DNA of 64,000 nt from the NCBI GenBank assembly GCA_016235165.1, contig JACRLX010000012.1, positions 48,886 to 112,885 on the forward strand, given 5' to 3'. The stretch comes from Rhodocyclales bacterium. GTDB taxonomy: Bacteria; Pseudomonadota; Gammaproteobacteria; Burkholderiales; Rhodocyclaceae. Of the stretch, positions 39,150 to 50,450 are shown in pieces (the stretch's first letter is position 1; each line of letters begins with the position of its first letter). The notes under the pieces are model-generated. The model saw only the letters and a program-made list of their open reading frames with translations, was not told where the DNA came from and made no database searches. A program made the translations under genes and the position numbers.

Positions 39150-42137
39150 TCAGTGCAGGTTCTTGCCGGCGGAGTAGATTGCGCCGTCATCCACCACGAC
39201 CCGGTTGGCCTGGATGTCGGCCAGCGCACTGCGTATCGTGCCGTCGGCGATCCAGTGTGCCGCATGTGGCGCGAGCAGGATTTCACGTGGCGCCATGGGG
39301 CGGGCGATGGCAAAGCCCTGGATGTAGTCGATGCCGACCTCGGCCATGGCGCGCAGGGTTGCCGCGTCCTCGACCCATTCGGCGATCGAGCGCATGCCGA
39401 GATTGCGCGAGAGGTCGCTGATCGCCTGCACGATGGAAAGGCGCGAGGGATGGCGCGCGGCCGATTCGACGATGGCGCCGTCGATCTTGATCACGTCGGC
39501 TTGCAGGTCGCACAGATACATGAAGGAGGTATAGCCGGCGCCGAAATCGTCCAGCGCCAGCTTGACGTCGAATTCGCGCAGACGCTCCAGCACACGGCGC
39601 GTCTGGTCGAAATCGCGCAGCGCGACACCCTCGGTGATTTCTGCGCAGAGCCGCGCCGCCGCGCGCGGGTGGGCGCGCAGCATGGCATAGGCATCGGCCA
39701 TGAACTGCTCGTCGTTGATCGAGGCGCCGGAAAAATTGACGGTGACGAAGCGTGTGCCGGCCAGTTGCGCCAGGTGGGTATCCAGCCATTCGAGCACCGT
39801 GCCCAGCACCCAGCGGTCGATCACGCCGACCCGGCCGTGGGCTTCGGCCACGCTGATCACGCGGCTGGCCGGCATGGTGCTGCCGTCGGGCGCGCGGGCC
39901 CGCAGCAGGACTTCGAAATCGAGGCAGCCCTGCGGGTCGTGCAGCGACATGATCGGCTGCATGGCGATGGCCAGGAATTCCGGCGCCCGCTCCGGCGTCA
40001 GGCGCGAAACCAGCACGCGCTCCTCGTCGTGTTCCTGGAAGGCCGGCGCGTCGGCGCCATAGGCGACCACATGGCCGGAAGTGGCGATGCGCTTGGCCTC
40101 GCGACAGGCGCGGTCGGCGGCGGCGATCAGGTCCGCGACCTCGATGCCGGGCGTGACTTCCACCGCGCCAAAGGAAACGCCGATGCGGAAGGCCAGCTCC
40201 TGCACGCGGAAGGGGCTGCCGTCGATCAACTCGACCAGTTCGCGGCATTTGGCGCTGGCCTCGGTCAGGGCCATGCCGCGCAACAGGATGAGGAATTCGT
40301 CGCCACCGATGCGCCCCAGCAGGTGTTCGCTGCCCAGCGATTTGTTGATCCGGTTGCACAGCTGGCGCAGCACTTCGTCGCCGGCGGTATGGCCGAACAG
40401 GTCATTCACGGTCTTGAAGCGGTCCAGGTCCATGTAGGCCAGGGTTATCGGCGACTGGTCGCCCGCCGCGCGGATCGCGCCGCGCAAGGCCTGCTCGATG
40501 GCGCGGCGCGACAGCGTGCCGGTGAGCTGGTCGTGATCGGCCAGGTACATCAGCTTGCGGTTGGCGGTGACGGCCTCGGTGATGTCCTCGATCGAGCCCT
40601 CGATCAGGCTCTCGCCGATCGAGGCGCGGGCTTCATACCAGGCGTGCTGGTCCCGCGACTGGAAACGCAACTGGCCGCGCGGGCCGTCGGCGAGCAGGCT
40701 GGACAGCGCTTCCCAGCTGCCGGGCTCGAAATAATCCTGCCAGCGCGCCTTGCCTTCCAGCACGCCCTGTCCCAGCAGGCGGCCCAGCGCCGGGTTGCCG
40801 CGCAGCAGGCGGCCGGTGGCATCGGCGGTGAAAAACGCCACCGGAACCTGGTCATAGGTTTTTTGCAGGGCCATCTCGGCGCCCTCGCGACCGGAGCGCT
40901 CGATGCGCATTTGCTCCGCCAGGGCCATCGCCACCAGCAGGCCGGAACTCAGGGCGGCGGTGACGCTGTTGACATAGGGCAAGGGGCCGGGGAGGCCGAA
41001 CATGGCCTTGATCACTTCGGCGAATCCGGCGATCGCGGTGACCACCAGCGAGCCGGCGAACCACATGGCGATGCGCGAGCGCGACACCAGCAGGATGCTG
41101 CCAAGATACCAGACGATGATGCCGTAGCCGACGAAGGAGCCGATCCACAGCATCGGAATGAAGTTGCGGTAGGGCAGCAGGAAGGCGGCCGCGAACATCG
41201 GCAGCCAGAGCAGTTCCAGGACGCGAATCGGGAGGTGTTCGCCAAGTCGCTTGAGGTCGTCCTGAAACAGGCGTGTGAAGAGGAAGGCCGTCAGCGGGAA
41301 ATTGCAGGCGAGCACGAACTTGCGTGTGCCATCGAGCCACGCCGCCGGCACCTGGTGTCCCAGCCAATGCATGTCCCAACCGGCGGAAATCGCACCGACG
41401 CGCGCGCTCACCAACAGCCAACCGGCGAATGCCAGATATACCGGCTCGCGGTTGACCAGCGCGGCCAGCAGCATGAAGATCGCCAGCACGGTCAGGCCGC
41501 CTTCGAGCAGCCCCATGTCGTTGGCGAATCCGCGTTGCGCAATGTCGAACTCGGTTGCCTGCCAGGCGGTCACTGAAAGCCGGGCCGGCCCGACGAAGGT
41601 GGCGCGGCACAGCAAGGGTACGCCGGAGAGATTTACGCCGTTGGTCGCAAACCCCGCGTTGGCCAGTATCAGTGCGTCGCTGCCGCCTGCCCGCGTCGCG
41701 CTGCCCAGCGGCTTCAGGTCGGTACCGCGCCAGCAGCTCAGGGTACGCGCGTGGCGCGACGGAAAGACCACCACCGGCGGGCCGGCGGCGTCGACTTCAA
41801 GCCTGGGCGGCGTAAAGCGGAACCAGACCGGAGCCTCGGAGAGCTGGGTGTCGAACGAGGTCGTCGGACGCGCGCCGCGGAGCGCCTCGCGTGCCGCCGC
41901 CGGTTCCATGCCGCCATCGTCGGGAATGAATGAAAGCGCGGCAAACTGCAGGTCGGGCGGGGGGCGCTGGCCGGTGCCGGATTCCCAGGCCGATAATGCG
42001 AGCAGCATCAGCGCGCCCAGGGTGAGCGGAATTACCGCGTAGGAGAGGCCGGCAAGCCAGCGCGTATTGCTGCGCACCAAGCCGCGCAGGGCCTCGCGCG
42101 ATGCGAGCAAGAGCAGGCGCCGCGTGCGGGAACTCAT
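39150..42137 (-). CDS. Membrane 7TM-type PAS-GGDEF-EAL protein
   Basis: 995 aa. An N-terminal helix, a periplasmic region (~50-200), about seven membrane helices (~205-410), a PAS domain (~425-545, TYDQVPVAFFTADATGRLLRG), GGDEF with intact IGGDEF, and EAL with the variant DFEVLLR in place of EALLR. Other EAL metal and catalytic positions look kept (TVNFSG, EITEG, DDFGAGYTSF, VIKIDG, AEWVED). It may both make and break c-di-GMP. It lies 43 bp downstream of the FeeM-like gene. Confidence 0.88.
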   Translation of the reverse strand: MSSRTRRLLLLASREALRGLVRSNTRWLAGLSYAVIPLTLGALMLLALSAWESGTGQRPPPDLQFAALSFIPDDGGMEPAAAREALRGARPTTSFDTQLSEAPVWFRFTPPRLEVDAAGPPVVVFPSRHARTLSCWRGTDLKPLGSATRAGGSDALILANAGFATNGVNLSGVPLLCRATFVGPARLSVTAWQATEFDIAQRGFANDMGLLEGGLTVLAIFMLLAALVNREPVYLAFAGWLLVSARVGAISAGWDMHWLGHQVPAAWLDGTRKFVLACNFPLTAFLFTRLFQDDLKRLGEHLPIRVLELLWLPMFAAAFLLPYRNFIPMLWIGSFVGYGIIVWYLGSILLVSRSRIAMWFAGSLVVTAIAGFAEVIKAMFGLPGPLPYVNSVTAALSSGLLVAMALAEQMRIERSGREGAEMALQKTYDQVPVAFFTADATGRLLRGNPALGRLLGQGVLEGKARWQDYFEPGSWEALSSLLADGPRGQLRFQSRDQHAWYEARASIGESLIEGSIEDITEAVTANRKLMYLADHDQLTGTLSRRAIEQALRGAIRAAGDQSPITLAYMDLDRFKTVNDLFGHTAGDEVLRQLCNRINKSLGSEHLLGRIGGDEFLILLRGMALTEASAKCRELVELIDGSPFRVQELAFRIGVSFGAVEVTPGIEVADLIAAADRACREAKRIATSGHVVAYGADAPAFQEHDEERVLVSRLTPERAPEFLAIAMQPIMSLHDPQGCLDFEVLLRARAPDGSTMPASRVISVAEAHGRVGVIDRWVLGTVLEWLDTHLAQLAGTRFVTVNFSGASINDEQFMADAYAMLRAHPRAAARLCAEITEGVALRDFDQTRRVLERLREFDVKLALDDFGAGYTSFMYLCDLQADVIKIDGAIVESAARHPSRLSIVQAISDLSRNLGMRSIAEWVEDAATLRAMAEVGIDYIQGFAIARPMAPREILLAPHAAHWIADGTIRSALADIQANRVVVDDGAIYSAGKNLH

Positions 42138-43010: not shown

Positions 43011-43700
43011 TCAGGAGTTGCTGCGGTAACCGTAGCGTCGCGCCAGCACTTCGGGATTTGCGCCGAAGTAATGGGCCGCGCGCAGGCGCCACATCAGCAG
43101 CATGGTGCGCCAGACTCCATGCTGCTCCCAGCGTCGTGCCGAAGTCGTCACCGGCTCCGCCAGGCAAGCGGGTGCGGCTTCGCGCTTGAGCCTGGCACAG
43201 AGGCGTATGTCTTCCATCAGGGGGATGTCTTGGTAGCCACCGATGCGCTCGAACAGGTCGCGGCGCAGGAAGATGGCCTGGTCGCCGGTGGCGATGCCGG
43301 TAAGCCGGGAGCGCCAGTTCATCATTCGCTCGACAATCCGCAGCAAGGGGTGGCTGCCGTCGATCCGCACATCGAAGCGTCCCCAAAGCGCTCCGGCGTC
43401 GATTGCACCGACGATGGCGTCGAAAGCCCGCGGCGGTAGCTCGGTATCGGCGTGGAGGAAAAGCAGGATCTCGCCGTGGCTGATGGCGGCGCCGGCATTC
43501 ATCTGTCTGGCGCGGCCACATGCCGCGATCAGGACATGGTCGGCCAGCCCGGCACAGCGGGCGGCGGTGCCGTCGCGGCTGCCGCCATCGGCGACCACCA
43601 ACTCCACGCCTTGCGCCCGCAGGGCTTGCAGCGCCGCCAACCGGGCGCCAATCGCGGATGCTTCATCGAGCACCGGCAGGATGATCGACAAACGCCTCAT
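43011..43700 (-). CDS. Family 2 glycosyltransferase, TIGR04283 type (arsenosugar/rSAM-associated)
   Basis: The ATG at 43700 (MRRLSIILPVLDEASAIGAR) overlaps msrA by 4 nt. 229 aa. GT-A features are VVADGGSRDGTA, FLHADTELPPRAFDAI and YQDIPLMEDIRLCARLKR, as in the TIGR04283 family linked to radical-SAM arsenosugar biosynthesis. arsS is encoded 5.6 kb away (49283-50278), which supports that link but is not the usual adjacency. It ends the msrB-msrA-GT operon. Confidence 0.8.
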   Translation of the reverse strand: MRRLSIILPVLDEASAIGARLAALQALRAQGVELVVADGGSRDGTAARCAGLADHVLIAACGRARQMNAGAAISHGEILLFLHADTELPPRAFDAIVGAIDAGALWGRFDVRIDGSHPLLRIVERMMNWRSRLTGIATGDQAIFLRRDLFERIGGYQDIPLMEDIRLCARLKREAAPACLAEPVTTSARRWEQHGVWRTMLLMWRLRAAHYFGANPEVLARRYGYRSNS

Positions 43701-44305
43701 CGATCCGACCAGAGGAATTCGATCCGCGCATCGCGTCCGCAGGCTTGGCGATAAAAGCTGTAACGAACCGGATTCTTCCTGTGGTAGTCCTGGTGGTAGC
43801 CCTCGGCCGGCCAGAATTTCCATGCCGGCGCGATCTCGGTTTCGATCCGGGTGAAGCGCCCGCTTTTCAGCAGATGGTCGCGACTCGCCTCGGCGAGCTT
43901 GCGCTCCGCGTCGTTCTGGTAGTAGATGCCGCTGCGGTACTGGTTGCCCTTGTCGCAGAACTGACGGTCCTTCACCGTGGGGTCGATGTGGCGCCAGAAA
44001 TGGTCGAGCAGCTGCGCGTAGCCGAGCTTGCGCGGATCGTAGATGACGCGCACGGCTTCGGTGTGGCCGGTGCCGCCGTGCGCCACCTGTTCGTAGGTGG
44101 GGAAGGGAATTTTGCCGCCGATGTAGCCCGATTCGGCCTCGATCACGCCGGGCAGTTTTTCGAAATCGTGCTCCACGCACCAGAAGCAGCCACCGGCAAA
44201 GATGGCGGTGGCCATGCCGGGAGGTACCGGAATCGATTCCGCGCTGGCGGCGCAGCCAAGCAGACTTCCGGCCGCCAGCAAAGCCGTTGCGAGCGAGCGC
44301 TTCAT
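43697..44305 (-). CDS. msrA: Peptide-methionine (S)-S-oxide reductase MsrA, exported
   Basis: The ATG at 44305 (MKRSLATALLAAGSLLGCAAS) overlaps msrB by 4 nt. 202 aa. The N terminus is a signal peptide with a possible lipobox (SLLGC), so the protein acts in the periplasm. The catalytic motif is GGCFWCVEHDF; YIGGKIPFPTYEQVAHGGTGHTEAV is standard MsrA. It repairs oxidised methionine in exported proteins together with the exported MsrB. Confidence 0.94.
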   Translation of the reverse strand: MKRSLATALLAAGSLLGCAASAESIPVPPGMATAIFAGGCFWCVEHDFEKLPGVIEAESGYIGGKIPFPTYEQVAHGGTGHTEAVRVIYDPRKLGYAQLLDHFWRHIDPTVKDRQFCDKGNQYRSGIYYQNDAERKLAEASRDHLLKSGRFTRIETEIAPAWKFWPAEGYHQDYHRKNPVRYSFYRQACGRDARIEFLWSDR

Positions 44306-44802
44306 GTGCGCAGCGCCGGCAAGGCGTCGCCGCGGGCGACGAAGCGCAGGGCGATACCGTTGTTGCAGTAGCGTTTGCCGGTGGGCTGCGGGCCGTCGCT
44401 GAAGACATGGCCCTGATGGCCGCCACAGCGCGAGCAGTGGTATTCGGTGCGCGGATAAATCAGCTTGAAATCGGTCGACGTCCCCAGCGCTCCCGGCAGG
44501 CCCTGCCAGAAACTGGGCCAGCCGGTGCCGCTTTCGTATTTGTGCGCGGCATCGAACAGGGGCAGGTTGCAGGCCGCGCAAAGGTAAGTGCCGGGCCGTT
44601 TTTCGTTGTTGAGCAGGCTGCTGCCGGCACGCTCCGTGCCGTCCTCGAACAAGACCTGGTAGGCCTCGGCCGAAAGCAGTTTCTTCCATTCGTCACGAGT
44701 CTTGCTGACGGCGAACTTTCCGTTGGCGCCCGCGGCGACGCCGGTCAGCAACGGCGTGGCAAGCAGTCCGGTGACGGTATAAAGCCAGCTGCGGCGATTC
44801 AT
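44302..44802 (-). CDS. msrB: Peptide-methionine (R)-S-oxide reductase MsrB, exported
   Basis: The ATG at 44802 (MNRRSWLYTVTGLLATPLLTG) follows a GGAG site; the track start adds 17 residues. 166 aa with a Tat- or Sec-like signal (NRRSW). Zinc cysteines CAAC and CSRC, the GTGWPSFWQ block and the catalytic cysteine in GKRYCNNGIALRF are present. It is first in the msrB-msrA-glycosyltransferase operon. Confidence 0.95.
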   Translation of the reverse strand: MNRRSWLYTVTGLLATPLLTGVAAGANGKFAVSKTRDEWKKLLSAEAYQVLFEDGTERAGSSLLNNEKRPGTYLCAACNLPLFDAAHKYESGTGWPSFWQGLPGALGTSTDFKLIYPRTEYHCSRCGGHQGHVFSDGPQPTGKRYCNNGIALRFVARGDALPALRT

Positions 44803-44949
44803 GTGCTTCTCCTGTCGTTGGTTGACGGCGCCGGTAGCGATGGCGCTCCCCATTTGGTCGCGCCCGGCGGCTTTTCCTTACGCCAGCCGATTTCCCATGT
44901 TAGTCAGATTGCGTCAAAATGCGTTCCATTCCCAATTACGACACTGTTC

Positions 44950-45528
44950 ATGGAGCCGGACCGTCATTCCGAATTGAACGCCCTGCGCCCGGATCTGCTG
45001 CGTTTTGCGCGCTTGCAGTTGCGCGACGCCGGGGCGGCCGAGGATGCGGTGCAGGAAACCCTGCTGGCTGCGCTTGCAGGCGGCAAGAACTTCGAGCAGA
45101 GGTCCGCGTACAAGACCTGGTTGATCTCCATCCTGCGCAACAAGATCATCGACATCATTCGCAGCCAGGGCCGCGAGGCACCCCTGTCGACCCTGGCGGA
45201 CAACGATGAGGCGGAGGAGGCAATGATTGACGCCTTGTTCGAGACCGATGGTCACTGGCGCGCGGAGATGCGTCCGGCGCGCTGGGCCGACCCCGAGGCT
45301 TCACTGGAGCAGCAACAGTTCTGGCGCGTGTTCGAAGCCTGCCTCGACCACCTGCCGGAAAAAACCGCGCGCGTGTTCATGATGCGCGAGGTGCTCGGCC
45401 TCGAAACCGAGGAAATCTGTAAGGAAACCGGCATCAGCACGTCCAACTGCTGGGTGGTGTTGCATCGGGCGCGTCTGGCCCTGCGCGCCTGTCTGCAACA
45501 GGGTTGGTTTGCCGGGGCGGAGGCCTGA
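44950..45528 (+). CDS. ECF-type RNA polymerase sigma factor
   Basis: The ATG at 44950 (MEPDRHSELNALRPDLLRF) gives 192 aa; the track's 413-aa version includes untranslated upstream sequence. Region 2 is seen in AEDAVQETLLAALAGG and YKTWLISILRNKIIDIIRS, and region 4 in LDHLPEKTARVFMMREVLGLETEEICKETGIS. It should be held by the zinc anti-sigma gene that starts two bases after its stop. It is divergent from the msrB operon across ~147 bp, so oxidative stress is a possible trigger. Confidence 0.9.
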   Translation: MEPDRHSELNALRPDLLRFARLQLRDAGAAEDAVQETLLAALAGGKNFEQRSAYKTWLISILRNKIIDIIRSQGREAPLSTLADNDEAEEAMIDALFETDGHWRAEMRPARWADPEASLEQQQFWRVFEACLDHLPEKTARVFMMREVLGLETEEICKETGISTSNCWVVLHRARLALRACLQQGWFAGAEA

Positions 45529-45529
45529 G

Positions 45530-45712
45530 ATGCTGAGCTGCAAGCAGGCGACCGAGCTGATGTCGCAGGAACAGGATCGACGCCTGGGTCTCACCGAGCG
45601 CATCGGCTTGCGCCTGCATGTATTGATCTGCGATGCCTGTAGCAACTATCGGCGCCAGATGGCTTTCCTGCGCCAGGCATGCCGACGCTTCGGCAGCGGG
45701 GGGGCGCCTTGA
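45530..45712 (+). CDS. Small zinc-binding anti-sigma factor (ZAS/zf-HC2)
   Basis: The start MLSCKQATELMSQEQDR at 45530 is chosen by coupling to the sigma gene. 60 aa. The HxxxCxxC motif (LRLHVLICDACSNYR) with an upstream cysteine is the zinc anti-sigma domain. There is no membrane segment, so it would be a cytoplasmic ZAS protein whose cysteines could sense oxidants. Confidence 0.85.
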   Translation: MLSCKQATELMSQEQDRRLGLTERIGLRLHVLICDACSNYRRQMAFLRQACRRFGSGGAP

Positions 45713-45924
45713 ACGAGGTGCCGGAGGCAAACAGCGGTTGTCAGCGATGCGGCACGCGTTTCCGTTGCGGCATGGTCGGCGGCGATGGCGAATGCTGGTG
45801 CGCCGGGCTGCCGGCGGTGGCGGTCTTGCCGGTACCGCCGGCGGGGTCGGCCGCGTCCTGCTTCTGTCCGGCCTGTCTCGAAGCCGTGCGGGCGGAGCGG
45901 CTCGGTGCGGAGCGCCGGCAGTGA
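45709..45924 (+). CDS. Cysteine-rich CWC family small protein
   Basis: 71 aa if started at the TTG overlapping the previous stop (TTGA); an ATG at 45679 is the alternative. The pattern CQRCGTRFRCG, ECWCAGLPAV, CFCPACLEAV is that of the CWC family (predicted metal binding, function unknown). Its stop overlaps the next gene's GTG (GTGA), so four genes are coupled from the sigma factor on. Confidence 0.75.
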   Translation: MNEVPEANSGCQRCGTRFRCGMVGGDGECWCAGLPAVAVLPVPPAGSAASCFCPACLEAVRAERLGAERRQ

Positions 45925-47777
45925 AGTTGCTGAACAAGATACTGCTGGTTTCGGCGATCATCCTGGCGGTGCTGGTGACGGTGCTGACTGTGCTTTCGGC
46001 GCTGAGCCTGCGCCAGTTCTCGATTTATACCGCCGAACGCCATGCCCGTTCGGTGGCAGAGACGGTCAAGGTCGGACTCACCGAGAGCATGATCAACGGC
46101 ACCATCAAGAAGCGCCAGCAGTTCCTCACCCGCATGTCGGGTATTCCCGGAGTCAATGAGGTTCGCGTCGCACGCGGTCCGGCGGTGGTGGCGCAGTTCG
46201 GCCCGGGTTTTGCCACCGAGGACGCTGTGCATCACGACGTCAAGCAAGTCCTGTCCAGCGGCCGGGAAATCTTCGAACTGGTTGAGGTCAACGGCGAGCT
46301 GATTTTTCATGCCGTGATTCCCTACATCGCCTCGGACCAGGGCATCCCCAACTGCCTGCAATGTCACACGGTGCGCGCCGGCACGGTATTGGGCGCGATC
46401 CAGGTCGATATTCCTTTCACCGAGGTGCGCCATCAGGGCCTCATCGCCGTTGCCCTGGTCAGCGTCGCCGTGCTGGTGGCCGCGCTGGTGGCCCTGGCCT
46501 TGTTGCGACGGATGATGGGTCCGTTGTCGGAAACCGCCAAGGCGGTACATGAGGTCACCTCGCAGGCGGTCGAAGGCGACTTCGGTGGTCGGGTGCGGCA
46601 ACGCAGCTCCGACGAGGTCGGCGACATTGCCTCGAACATCAATCGCCTGCTGGAATTCCTGCAACGCGAGGTCCGCACCATCCGCGACCGGGTCGGCGAG
46701 TTGATGAATTTCCAGGTCAAGGAGGGCGGCAACCAACTGGTGCACACCACCGAACTGGTCGAGACACTGGTCGAGGCGTCCCAGTTCAAGCAGGCGATCG
46801 AGGAAGATCAGACCAAGGCCGAAATCTACCAGCGCCTGGCCGACATGCTGAGCCGCAAATACCGGATACAGCGGTTCTCGATCTACGAGGTGGCTTCGAG
46901 CAAGAACCGCATGGCCGCGATGTCGATCGACGGCGATGCGGCGGCTACCTGCCGCTACTGCGATCCGCAGGTGATGGTGGACGCCAATTTCTGTCGCGCG
47001 CGCCGTACCGGCAAGGAGGTCAATGGGGTTGCCTTCCCCGGCTTATGCACCATGTTCCGTCCCGGCGCCGAAGGCGACACCCATGTCTGCCTGCCGATCA
47101 ACCAGTCGGGCAGCGCCGGCGCCGTGGTGCAGATCATCACCGGCGCCGATCAGGGCGACCTGGCCAGCCGTCTGGTGCCCTTTGTGAATGTCTATCTGCG
47201 CGAGGCCGGGCCGGTGCTGGAAGCCAAGCGCCTGATGGAACACCTGCGTGAAAATTCCCTGCGCGACCCGATGACCGGGCTCTACAACCGGCGTTTCCTC
47301 GAGGATTACGTCGGCGCACTGGTGTCCAGCAGCCAGCGACGCAAGGCCTCCTTCGCGGCATTGATGCTGGATCTCGATTTCTTCAAGCAGGTCAACGATA
47401 CCCACGGCCACGAAGCCGGCGACAAGGTGATCAAGACCCTGGCCGACCTGCTGGCGCGCAGCGTGCGCGGCTCCGATTTTGCCGTGCGCTATGGTGGCGA
47501 AGAGTTCCTCGTCGTTCTCGTCGATACCGGCATCGAACCGGCGTTGAAGGTCGCCGAGAAGATCCGTGCCGAAGTCGAGGCGACCAGGATCCCCCTGCCC
47601 AACGGAATTTTGCAGAAGACGATATCGATCGGCGTCGCCGAGTTCCCGGCCGATGCCGATACCTTCTGGCAGGTGGTGAAGTTCGCCGACGTCGCGCTCT
47701 ACAAGGCCAAGGCAAGTGGACGCAATCGCGTGATGCGCTTCCTGCCCGAAATGTGGGATGAAGACGGAGCCTATTGA
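45921..47777 (+). CDS. c-haem sensor diguanylate cyclase
   Basis: A GTG at 45921 (VKLLNKILLVSAIILAVL) overlaps the CWC stop. 618 aa. Helix ~6-28, periplasmic Cache/PAS-like domain (~30-180) with haem motif PNCLQCHTVRAGTVLGAI, second helix (~185-205), HAMP, a GAF-like region with cysteines (TCRYCDPQVMVDANFCRA), and GGDEF with GGEEF and an RGSD I-site five residues before it. It should make c-di-GMP in response to a redox or gas signal. Co-transcription with an ECF sigma/ZAS pair links it to stress. Confidence 0.9.
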   Translation: MKLLNKILLVSAIILAVLVTVLTVLSALSLRQFSIYTAERHARSVAETVKVGLTESMINGTIKKRQQFLTRMSGIPGVNEVRVARGPAVVAQFGPGFATEDAVHHDVKQVLSSGREIFELVEVNGELIFHAVIPYIASDQGIPNCLQCHTVRAGTVLGAIQVDIPFTEVRHQGLIAVALVSVAVLVAALVALALLRRMMGPLSETAKAVHEVTSQAVEGDFGGRVRQRSSDEVGDIASNINRLLEFLQREVRTIRDRVGELMNFQVKEGGNQLVHTTELVETLVEASQFKQAIEEDQTKAEIYQRLADMLSRKYRIQRFSIYEVASSKNRMAAMSIDGDAAATCRYCDPQVMVDANFCRARRTGKEVNGVAFPGLCTMFRPGAEGDTHVCLPINQSGSAGAVVQIITGADQGDLASRLVPFVNVYLREAGPVLEAKRLMEHLRENSLRDPMTGLYNRRFLEDYVGALVSSSQRRKASFAALMLDLDFFKQVNDTHGHEAGDKVIKTLADLLARSVRGSDFAVRYGGEEFLVVLVDTGIEPALKVAEKIRAEVEATRIPLPNGILQKTISIGVAEFPADADTFWQVVKFADVALYKAKASGRNRVMRFLPEMWDEDGAY

Positions 47778-49282: not shown

Positions 49283-50278
49283 TCAGCTCCCGCAGGTGGG
49301 CGCGGCGGCGGTGTCCGCACCCAGTGCGCCGCCGCAGCTCGATCCCTGTCCGGCGGTGCAGCCGTAGCAGTGCTCGGCGACCCGGATCGTGCGCTGTTCG
49401 AGCGTTGCCGCGGTCGCCTCGCTGATGTGCAGGCGTCGGCTGCCATCGGCGATGGCCAGGCCGAGTTGCTGGTTGAAATCGCAGTCGTAAAGCCAGCCCT
49501 GCCAGTCTACGCTGAGCAGGCTGCGACACATCACGCCATCGAGGTTGCCGGCCTGGTGGGCGTCGCGCAGGGTTTGCAGGTAGGCATTGAACTGGCCCTT
49601 GGAAATCAGCATGCTGCCAAAGCGCTGGATCGGCATGTTGGCCAGGCTGAAAAGCTGGCTGAAGACGATGTCATGGTTCTCGCCGAGATGGCGCTTGTAG
49701 TCGGCTTCCAGCCGCGCCTGCGGGGGCGGCAGGCTGGGCCCCTGCGGGTTATAGACCAGGTTCAGCGGCAGGCCGCCATCCGCGCGGCCGTAACCCAGCC
49801 GGTTGAGGCGGCGCAGCGCGCGCAGGCTGGCGGCAAAGACGCCGCTGCCGCGCTGGCGGTCGACGTTTTCTTCCAGGTAACAAGGTAGCGAAGCGACGAT
49901 TTCGACGCGATGGGCAGCGAGGAAGTCGGCCAGGTCTTCCTGCCCGGGTTCTTCGAGGATGGTCAGGTTGCAGCGGTCGATCACGCGCAGGCCGCGCGCC
50001 CGCGCCGCAACCACCAGGGAGCGGAAATGGGGGTTGAGTTCCGGAGCCCCGCCGGTCAGATCCAGGCAGCTTACCGAAGGGCTGGCGGCAACGAAGTCGA
50101 GCACCGCGGCGATGGTCTCGGTGCTCATTTCCTCGCTGCGCTTGGGGCCGGCATTGACATGGCAGTGCAGGCAGCTCTGGTTGCAACGGTAGCCGAGGTT
50201 GAGTTGCAGGGTCTCGACGCCGCGCCGGCGCAGGGCGGGAAAGTCGGTTTCGGTCAGCAGGGGCAGGGTGGCGTGCAT
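49283..50278 (-). CDS. arsS: Arsenosugar biosynthesis radical SAM protein ArsS
   Basis: The ATG at 50278 (MHATLPLLTETDFPALRRRG) gives 331 aa. The radical-SAM cluster motif is CNQSCLHC within LQLNLGYRCNQSCLHCHVNAGPKRSEEM, and the C-terminal SPASM-like cysteines are in EHCYGCTAGQGSSCGGAL. ArsS attaches the 5'-deoxyadenosyl group to methylated arsenic in arsenosugar synthesis. A TIGR04283 glycosyltransferase is 5.6 kb away. No arsM methyltransferase or ars repressor of classic type is in the window. Confidence 0.88.
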   Translation of the reverse strand: MHATLPLLTETDFPALRRRGVETLQLNLGYRCNQSCLHCHVNAGPKRSEEMSTETIAAVLDFVAASPSVSCLDLTGGAPELNPHFRSLVVAARARGLRVIDRCNLTILEEPGQEDLADFLAAHRVEIVASLPCYLEENVDRQRGSGVFAASLRALRRLNRLGYGRADGGLPLNLVYNPQGPSLPPPQARLEADYKRHLGENHDIVFSQLFSLANMPIQRFGSMLISKGQFNAYLQTLRDAHQAGNLDGVMCRSLLSVDWQGWLYDCDFNQQLGLAIADGSRRLHISEATAATLEQRTIRVAEHCYGCTAGQGSSCGGALGADTAAAPTCGS

Positions 50279-50450
50279 GGTTTTCTCCGGGGGAACCTCT
50301 GGCTTGGTCGCGCGACGCGGTACAAGCTTACATTCTGTGGTGGAAAAACTCCCCGGCGGCATGCGGCGATGGTGGTGTGCTTGAGAACCGCCGCCGGCAG
50401 CCGTTATAGTGACAGCGTAGCGGATTTCCCCCCAAGGCGGAGCATAGCGC

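Follow-up and report, generated by a model that had tools for sequence, protein, structure and literature searches.

A predicted sigma-dependent promoter within an ECF sigma gene of a Rhodocyclales bacterium faces genes for a zinc anti-sigma factor, a cysteine-rich protein and a haem-c diguanylate cyclase

Results

Organization of the locus

The DNA analysed here, which we call the window, is a 64-kb stretch of a Rhodocyclales genome. Four plus-strand genes follow one another at 44950-47777 with overlapping or abutting ends, and the coordinates and reading frames bear out the initial annotation in this respect. The first gene (44950-45528) encodes an ECF sigma factor, recognized by Pfam Sigma70_r2/r4_2 and by NCBIfam, where it scores 267.1 bits against the TIGR02943 family, above the curated cut-off of 162.2. 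It is adjoined, after a gap of 1 nt (45528 to 45530), by the gene for a 60-residue zinc anti-sigma factor of the ZAS type (45530-45712; Pfam zf-HC2; 76.8 bits against NCBIfam NF052368, antisigmaE), whose residues Cys4, His30, Cys34 and Cys37 include an H-x3-C-x2-C motif and an extra N-terminal cysteine. The third gene (45709-45924), for a cysteine-rich CWC protein (Pfam Cys_rich_CWC), overlaps the ZAS gene at a TTGA junction, and the fourth (45921-47777), for a 618-residue membrane diguanylate cyclase (DGC; Pfam HAMP and GGDEF) with a GTG start, overlaps the CWC gene at GTGA. The unusual TTG start suspected for the CWC gene is supported because in 19 relatives the protein likewise starts within an NTGA overlap, 9 of them using ATG and 10 GTG; a start at ATG 45679 was discarded in favour of the one in the overlap. 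A 96-residue reading frame from ATG 44919 was also rejected. It is out of frame with the sigma gene in the window, and since the frame varies among relatives, this ATG is taken as part of a conserved DNA element and not as a start.

The four genes lie divergent from those of exported methionine sulfoxide reductases, as had been noted: msrB (44302-44802, minus strand; Pfam SelR) and msrA (43697-44305, minus strand; Pfam PMSR), the latter with a lipoprotein-like signal. We re-assigned the msrB start to ATG 44802 (MNRRSW) because ATG 44853 sits in a predicted -10 element. A TIGR04283 arsenosugar-type glycosyltransferase gene (43026-43700, minus strand) overlaps msrA and is probably the third gene of the msr operon. 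A few kb away, at 39150-42137 on the minus strand, a 7TMR-DISM GGDEF-EAL protein is encoded, so that a second c-di-GMP enzyme lies nearby; its gene keeps its order beside msr-sigma in several relatives.

Conservation of the unit

How much of this arrangement is preserved in the genus? The sigma factor is encoded in 28 of 31 genomes, and in the 25 loci surveyed msrB is divergent from sigma-ZAS in 24, ZAS follows sigma in all 25, and CWC follows in 20. Frequencies such as those of msrB and CWC indicate that the arrangement is not due to chance. The DGC gene follows in only 12 of the 25, one of the 12 being truncated. The 4-nt CWC/DGC overlap was measured in the window and four other loci (G018, G030, G022 and G013), and the same junction, as ATGA, was found by reading in G006 (L110); in other loci the DGC gene is separated by 77-223 nt. 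Because the DGC gene is variably placed in the genus, and its homologues elsewhere are not near sigma, we conclude from these comparisons that msr-sigma-ZAS(-CWC) is the core unit and the DGC gene a clade-specific addition.

We also considered whether CWC is an obligate anti-sigma partner. This idea is unsupported: CWC survives the loss of sigma and ZAS in two genomes, and it is missing from three others (G005, G007 and G010) in which sigma and ZAS are present. One survivor is G016, which has lost sigma and ZAS to a deletion, so that its CWC continues in frame from the first six codons of the sigma gene (L104:6363-6720); the other is G002, which has a CWC-DGC pair without sigma. The G016 fusion is still divergent from msrBA, CWC having outlived the switch. 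The genes around CWC in other genera pointed to no clear function, and a search for a solved relative found none.

A promoter model and the msrB site

Upstream of msrB, relatives share the minus-strand pattern GTAAGGAAT...GACCAA. In the window the predicted sigma-dependent promoter of msrB-msrA reads GTAAGGAAA-N11-GCGACCAA (44854-44881, minus strand). A search of the whole 4.47-Mb genome with the exact promoter pattern gave only two matches, one for msrB and the other for a DUF1223 gene, which encodes an exported thioredoxin-like protein; the reversed pattern, run as a control, gave none. Allowing one mismatch adds a site inside the sigma gene itself, and one more gene. The site accompanies at least 19 DUF1223 copies of the genus, and its distance hardly varies. 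A matrix was trained on 18 of these DUF1223 sites only and then applied elsewhere. The consensus agrees with that of Neisseria sigmaE, GTMAGBWTT-N12/13-CGTCTAAH, a sigma factor that controls msrAB (PMC2893595).

Within the 64 kb of the window the two best matrix scores are 26.3 bits at 45419 (plus strand, in the sigma gene) and 26.0 bits at 44881 (minus strand, msrB), followed by 19.6 and 12.0 bits; the 19.6-bit site, antisense inside the DGC gene at 46418, was taken as chance. A near-consensus ECF promoter is thus predicted upstream of msrB, where a sigma motif had been anticipated, and the divergent msr genes are predicted to be under sigma control. In 325 kb from 24 other genomes of the genus, sites of at least 18 bits comprise 21 in the sigma gene, 18 at msrB and 3 others, one of which is identical to the arsS promoter of the same genome (G025). 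In G002 the genus-type sigma is absent and the DUF1223 motif is kept; these sites may thus also be recognized by a paralogue of sigma.

The window also holds arsS (49283-50278, minus strand; NCBIfam TIGR04167), which encodes a radical SAM protein and is a candidate regulon member. A weaker predicted sigma-dependent promoter, GTAAGCTTG-N11-GCGACCAA (50304-50331, minus strand; 9.8 bits), stands 25 nt before it, and five genomes of the genus (L262-L266) keep this placement, with GTAAGCAAT...CGACCAA 25-26 nt before arsS. Together with the TIGR04283 gene behind msrA, these sites suggest that arsenosugar-type genes belong to the sigma regulon. In three genomes (L259:1-4001, L260 and L261), that of the window included (G000 C1:41811), a one-mismatch site, GTAAGGAT...CGACCAA, precedes a gene for a fused TVP38/TMEM64-pyridine nucleotide-disulfide oxidoreductase. 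Further sigma-type sites lie near genes resembling bufferin precursors (DUF2282-like, with NPCAAK repeats; L268, L269, L074 and L077). Bufferins are known for copper chelation; taken more widely, the sigma family may act as a switch that responds to copper or thiols.

The region upstream of the sigma gene

A sigma promoter motif had likewise been expected upstream of 44950, and here the expectation failed. The best matrix score for a site upstream of and facing the sigma gene is -2.2, and the motif is absent from this position in all 25 loci. What is found instead is a conserved element, TTTCCCATGTTAGTCAGATTGCGTCAAAATGCG (44886-44926, plus strand), which does not fit the ECF matrix and whose conserved pattern is TTTGCC...TTAGTCATC..GGGTCAAAATGCG. 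A search of the element for a sigma70 pattern gave no match at 9/12; it is perhaps a weak housekeeping promoter. In G016 it is still in place before CWC after the deletion of sigma and ZAS, and in G002 a similar element precedes the CWC-DGC pair. Persistence of the element in these two genomes without sigma favours sigma-independent expression.

Might the operon nevertheless be positively autoregulated from a sigma-type promoter at its front? Autoregulation is common in ECF systems. The Neisseria rpoE gene provides a precedent (PMC2893595), and the upstream element does contain CGTCAAAA, which resembles the Neisseria -10. Against these points stand the scores just given, the lack of conservation of CGTC at the corresponding position of the element, and the retention of the element before CWC in a genome that has lost sigma and ZAS. 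Front-end autoregulation of the Neisseria kind is therefore very unlikely, and on the scores and the retention we have discarded it; with no ECF promoter upstream of 44950, sigma does not simply drive its own four-gene operon from the front.

A site within the sigma gene

The highest-scoring site of the window, GTAAGGAAA-N11-ACGTCCAA (45419-45446, plus strand), lies within the sigma gene and is predicted to be a sigma-dependent promoter facing ZAS, CWC and DGC. It coincides with the codons TGT AAG GAA ACC GGC ATC AGC ACG TCC AA(C), which specify CKETGISTSN in the region-4 helix-turn-helix, and a site of at least 18 bits is present here in 21 of the 24 other genus loci. Orthologues in the genus vary in the flanking codons, but almost all retain TGT AAG GAA and NCG TCC AA. 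The -35 element of the site has been lost in G017 and G013, and G013 retains the coupled DGC gene.

Is the motif simply a by-product of a conserved CKE..S.SN protein sequence and of codon bias, with all four genes expressed from the upstream promoter alone and independently of sigma? The motif is indeed in frame with strongly conserved residues, and codon conservation at the site is high within the genus, yet other stretches of the sigma gene are equally constrained. We weighed the codons by synonymous recoding of each sigma gene with local codon usage. The site of the window scores as high as the best of 2000 recodings (p=0.006), a maximum that random recodings do reach in about 0.6% of cases. 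Combined by Fisher's method, however, the tests give 1.6e-13 for the 18 informative lineages and 2.7e-13 for all 36, and an independent set of 24 sigma factors of the same family from other families of the class, gathered afterwards and with nothing re-tuned, gives 1.7e-6. The choice of cysteine codon also speaks against a by-product: Cys157, in the site, is TGT in 23 of 25 genes, whereas for Cys167, a little further on, TGC is used just as often (23 of 25). Finally, G041 offers a natural control. There the anti-sigma gene has been relocated and is divergent from sigma; the sigma gene lacks the internal site, and a 26.9-bit site is found 30-42 nt before the anti-sigma gene. A mere by-product is accordingly unlikely. 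Motif and codon constraint together point to a putative sigma-type promoter in the sigma gene that faces the anti-sigma gene, as in sigH-rshA. The open-access literature that we searched yielded no description of an intragenic promoter in the TIGR02943 sigma family.

The diguanylate cyclase

The cyclase comprises a periplasmic haem-c sensor of the Cache type, a HAMP domain, a cysteine-rich GAF-like domain, and an output domain with GGEEF and an RGSD I-site. The haem-c sensor claimed for it is supported. Its haem motif, CLQCH, occupies residues 145-149, and a comparison with 22 relatives and with 14 more diverse homologues shows no change at C145, C148 or H149; the GGEEF and RGSD motifs are intact (Pfam GGDEF, 7.7e-45). 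A model of the sensor domain (pLDDT 84) places CXXCH between strands 3 and 4 of a Cache fold, and the haem-c sensor GSU0935 is its best match in the PDB (E=5.7e-6, with a modest TM score of 0.47-0.52), ahead of WalK-type Cache domains. GSU0935 is one of the sCache_heme proteins; for signalling members of that family, binding of NO rather than O2 has been reported (PMC12889525). Against Pfam PF11845 the DGC of the window falls below the cut-off, and of 14 relatives, 4 give weak matches, the best at 0.0059; for this reason we term the sensor sCache_heme-like and not a Pfam member. A second set of cysteines, C344, C347, C358, C376 and C390, lies in the cytoplasmic GAF-like part (46800-47240). These five and a histidine are invariant in 22 relatives, and C358, C376 and C390 are so even in Campylobacterota, which suggests a second cofactor, possibly a metal or Fe-S sensor.

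Does the cyclase belong functionally to the sigma regulon, or is it a passenger, co-transcribed at a low constitutive level, with its activity set only by the haem sensor? In about half of the genus the DGC gene is absent from the sigma locus or lies elsewhere. An element, TGGWTATTTGYTAGSAT, precedes several separate DGC copies (L045, L048, L049, L053, L064, L102, L105 and L107), those of G012 and G004, the two genomes with no linkage between DGC and sigma, included; it is probably the separate gene's own promoter. Sigma is no neighbour of the homologues in Azonexus, Campylobacterota, Magnetococcales and others, and among 13 full-length homologues in other taxa none has sigma within about 6 kb. 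These facts are what a passenger would lead one to expect. On the other side, several species keep the 4-nt overlap and have there lost the separate promoter, a combination that suggests selection for coupling. A passenger role is a real possibility, if one to which we give less than even weight. The direct link from sigma to c-di-GMP drawn in the initial annotation therefore stands in part: it could be made through the predicted promoter within the sigma gene, but not from the front of the operon, and the DGC is lineage-specific. We found no report in the open-access literature of a diguanylate cyclase in such a sigma/anti-sigma operon.

Discussion

We think it probable that the locus is a redox-type ECF sigma/anti-sigma module with negative feedback, in which a promoter in the sigma factor's own gene drives the anti-sigma gene and the genes behind it. 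The sigma gene would have a promoter to itself, apparently not of the ECF type, and the small zinc anti-sigma factor, by homology to MseR, would hold sigma inactive until its cysteines are oxidised or its zinc is lost. It is the MseR-like Cys4/His30/Cys34/Cys37 set from which we infer the label 'oxidant-type' for the switch. Freed sigma would then act on the divergent msrB-msrA, on the DUF1223 exported thioredoxin-like gene elsewhere and probably on arsS. It would also transcribe the anti-sigma gene and everything behind it, from a promoter whose motif is known by comparison and whose activity we infer, in the codons of its own region 4; anti-sigma made from this transcript would reset the switch. 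In the clade to which this genome belongs, the haem-c Cache-sensor DGC appears to be translationally coupled to the anti-sigma transcript, so that c-di-GMP output would rise with the response, under the control of a haem ligand or redox signal in the periplasm.

A broader proposal is that the region-4 helix-turn-helix codons of TIGR02943 sigma factors of beta- and gammaproteobacteria hold a promoter for their own sigma that provides anti-sigma feedback, and that in one clade this promoter has captured a haem-c DGC, switching oxidant repair and c-di-GMP together. We put the chances of this proposal at about even. A regulatory signal inside protein-coding codons would, as suggested here, be conserved over a wide range of bacteria, and silent codon changes give a concrete and cheap handle on how small ECF switches reset themselves. 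For a little-studied genus, the analysis provides a predicted regulon that joins exported methionine sulfoxide repair to a c-di-GMP output.

What is new in this arrangement, and what is familiar? Control of msr by an ECF sigma factor is already known from Neisseria sigmaE/MseR, and an anti-sigma promoter inside the sigma gene from Corynebacterium glutamicum sigH-rshA. The window resembles the N. meningitidis system (NMB2144-NMB2145) in pairing an ECF sigma factor with a small ZAS protein that has cysteines at the same positions, Cys4, Cys34 and Cys37 being functional in MseR (PMC2893595). It also shares the methionine sulfoxide reductase target, here predicted, and a near-identical promoter consensus and spacing (PMC2893595). 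Unlike the sigma gene of the window, that of Neisseria lies inside a six-gene autoregulated operon with msrAB at a distance; CWC and a diguanylate cyclase are absent there, and an intragenic promoter is unreported (PMC2893595, PMC3240639).

The sensor of the cyclase resembles those of the sCache_heme family (DUF3365/Tll0287; GSU0935/GSU0582) in having a Cache-like domain in the periplasm, with CXXCH placed between strands three and four. In the window it is fused to a GGDEF output and, unlike sCache_heme, accompanied by a cytoplasmic cysteine-rich GAF-like domain.

The C. glutamicum sigH gene has housekeeping promoters and, within sigH, a sigma-dependent promoter that was demonstrated to drive rshA and proposed to shut the response down (PMC3489674). 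Both systems would thus have a sigma-type promoter within the sigma gene that faces a zinc anti-sigma gene, here as read from sequence. The sigH-rshA case, unlike ours, was shown experimentally, belongs to another phylum and sigma family, and has only the anti-sigma gene behind the promoter, whereas in the window CWC and DGC lie behind it as well and the site occupies codons of the region-4 helix.
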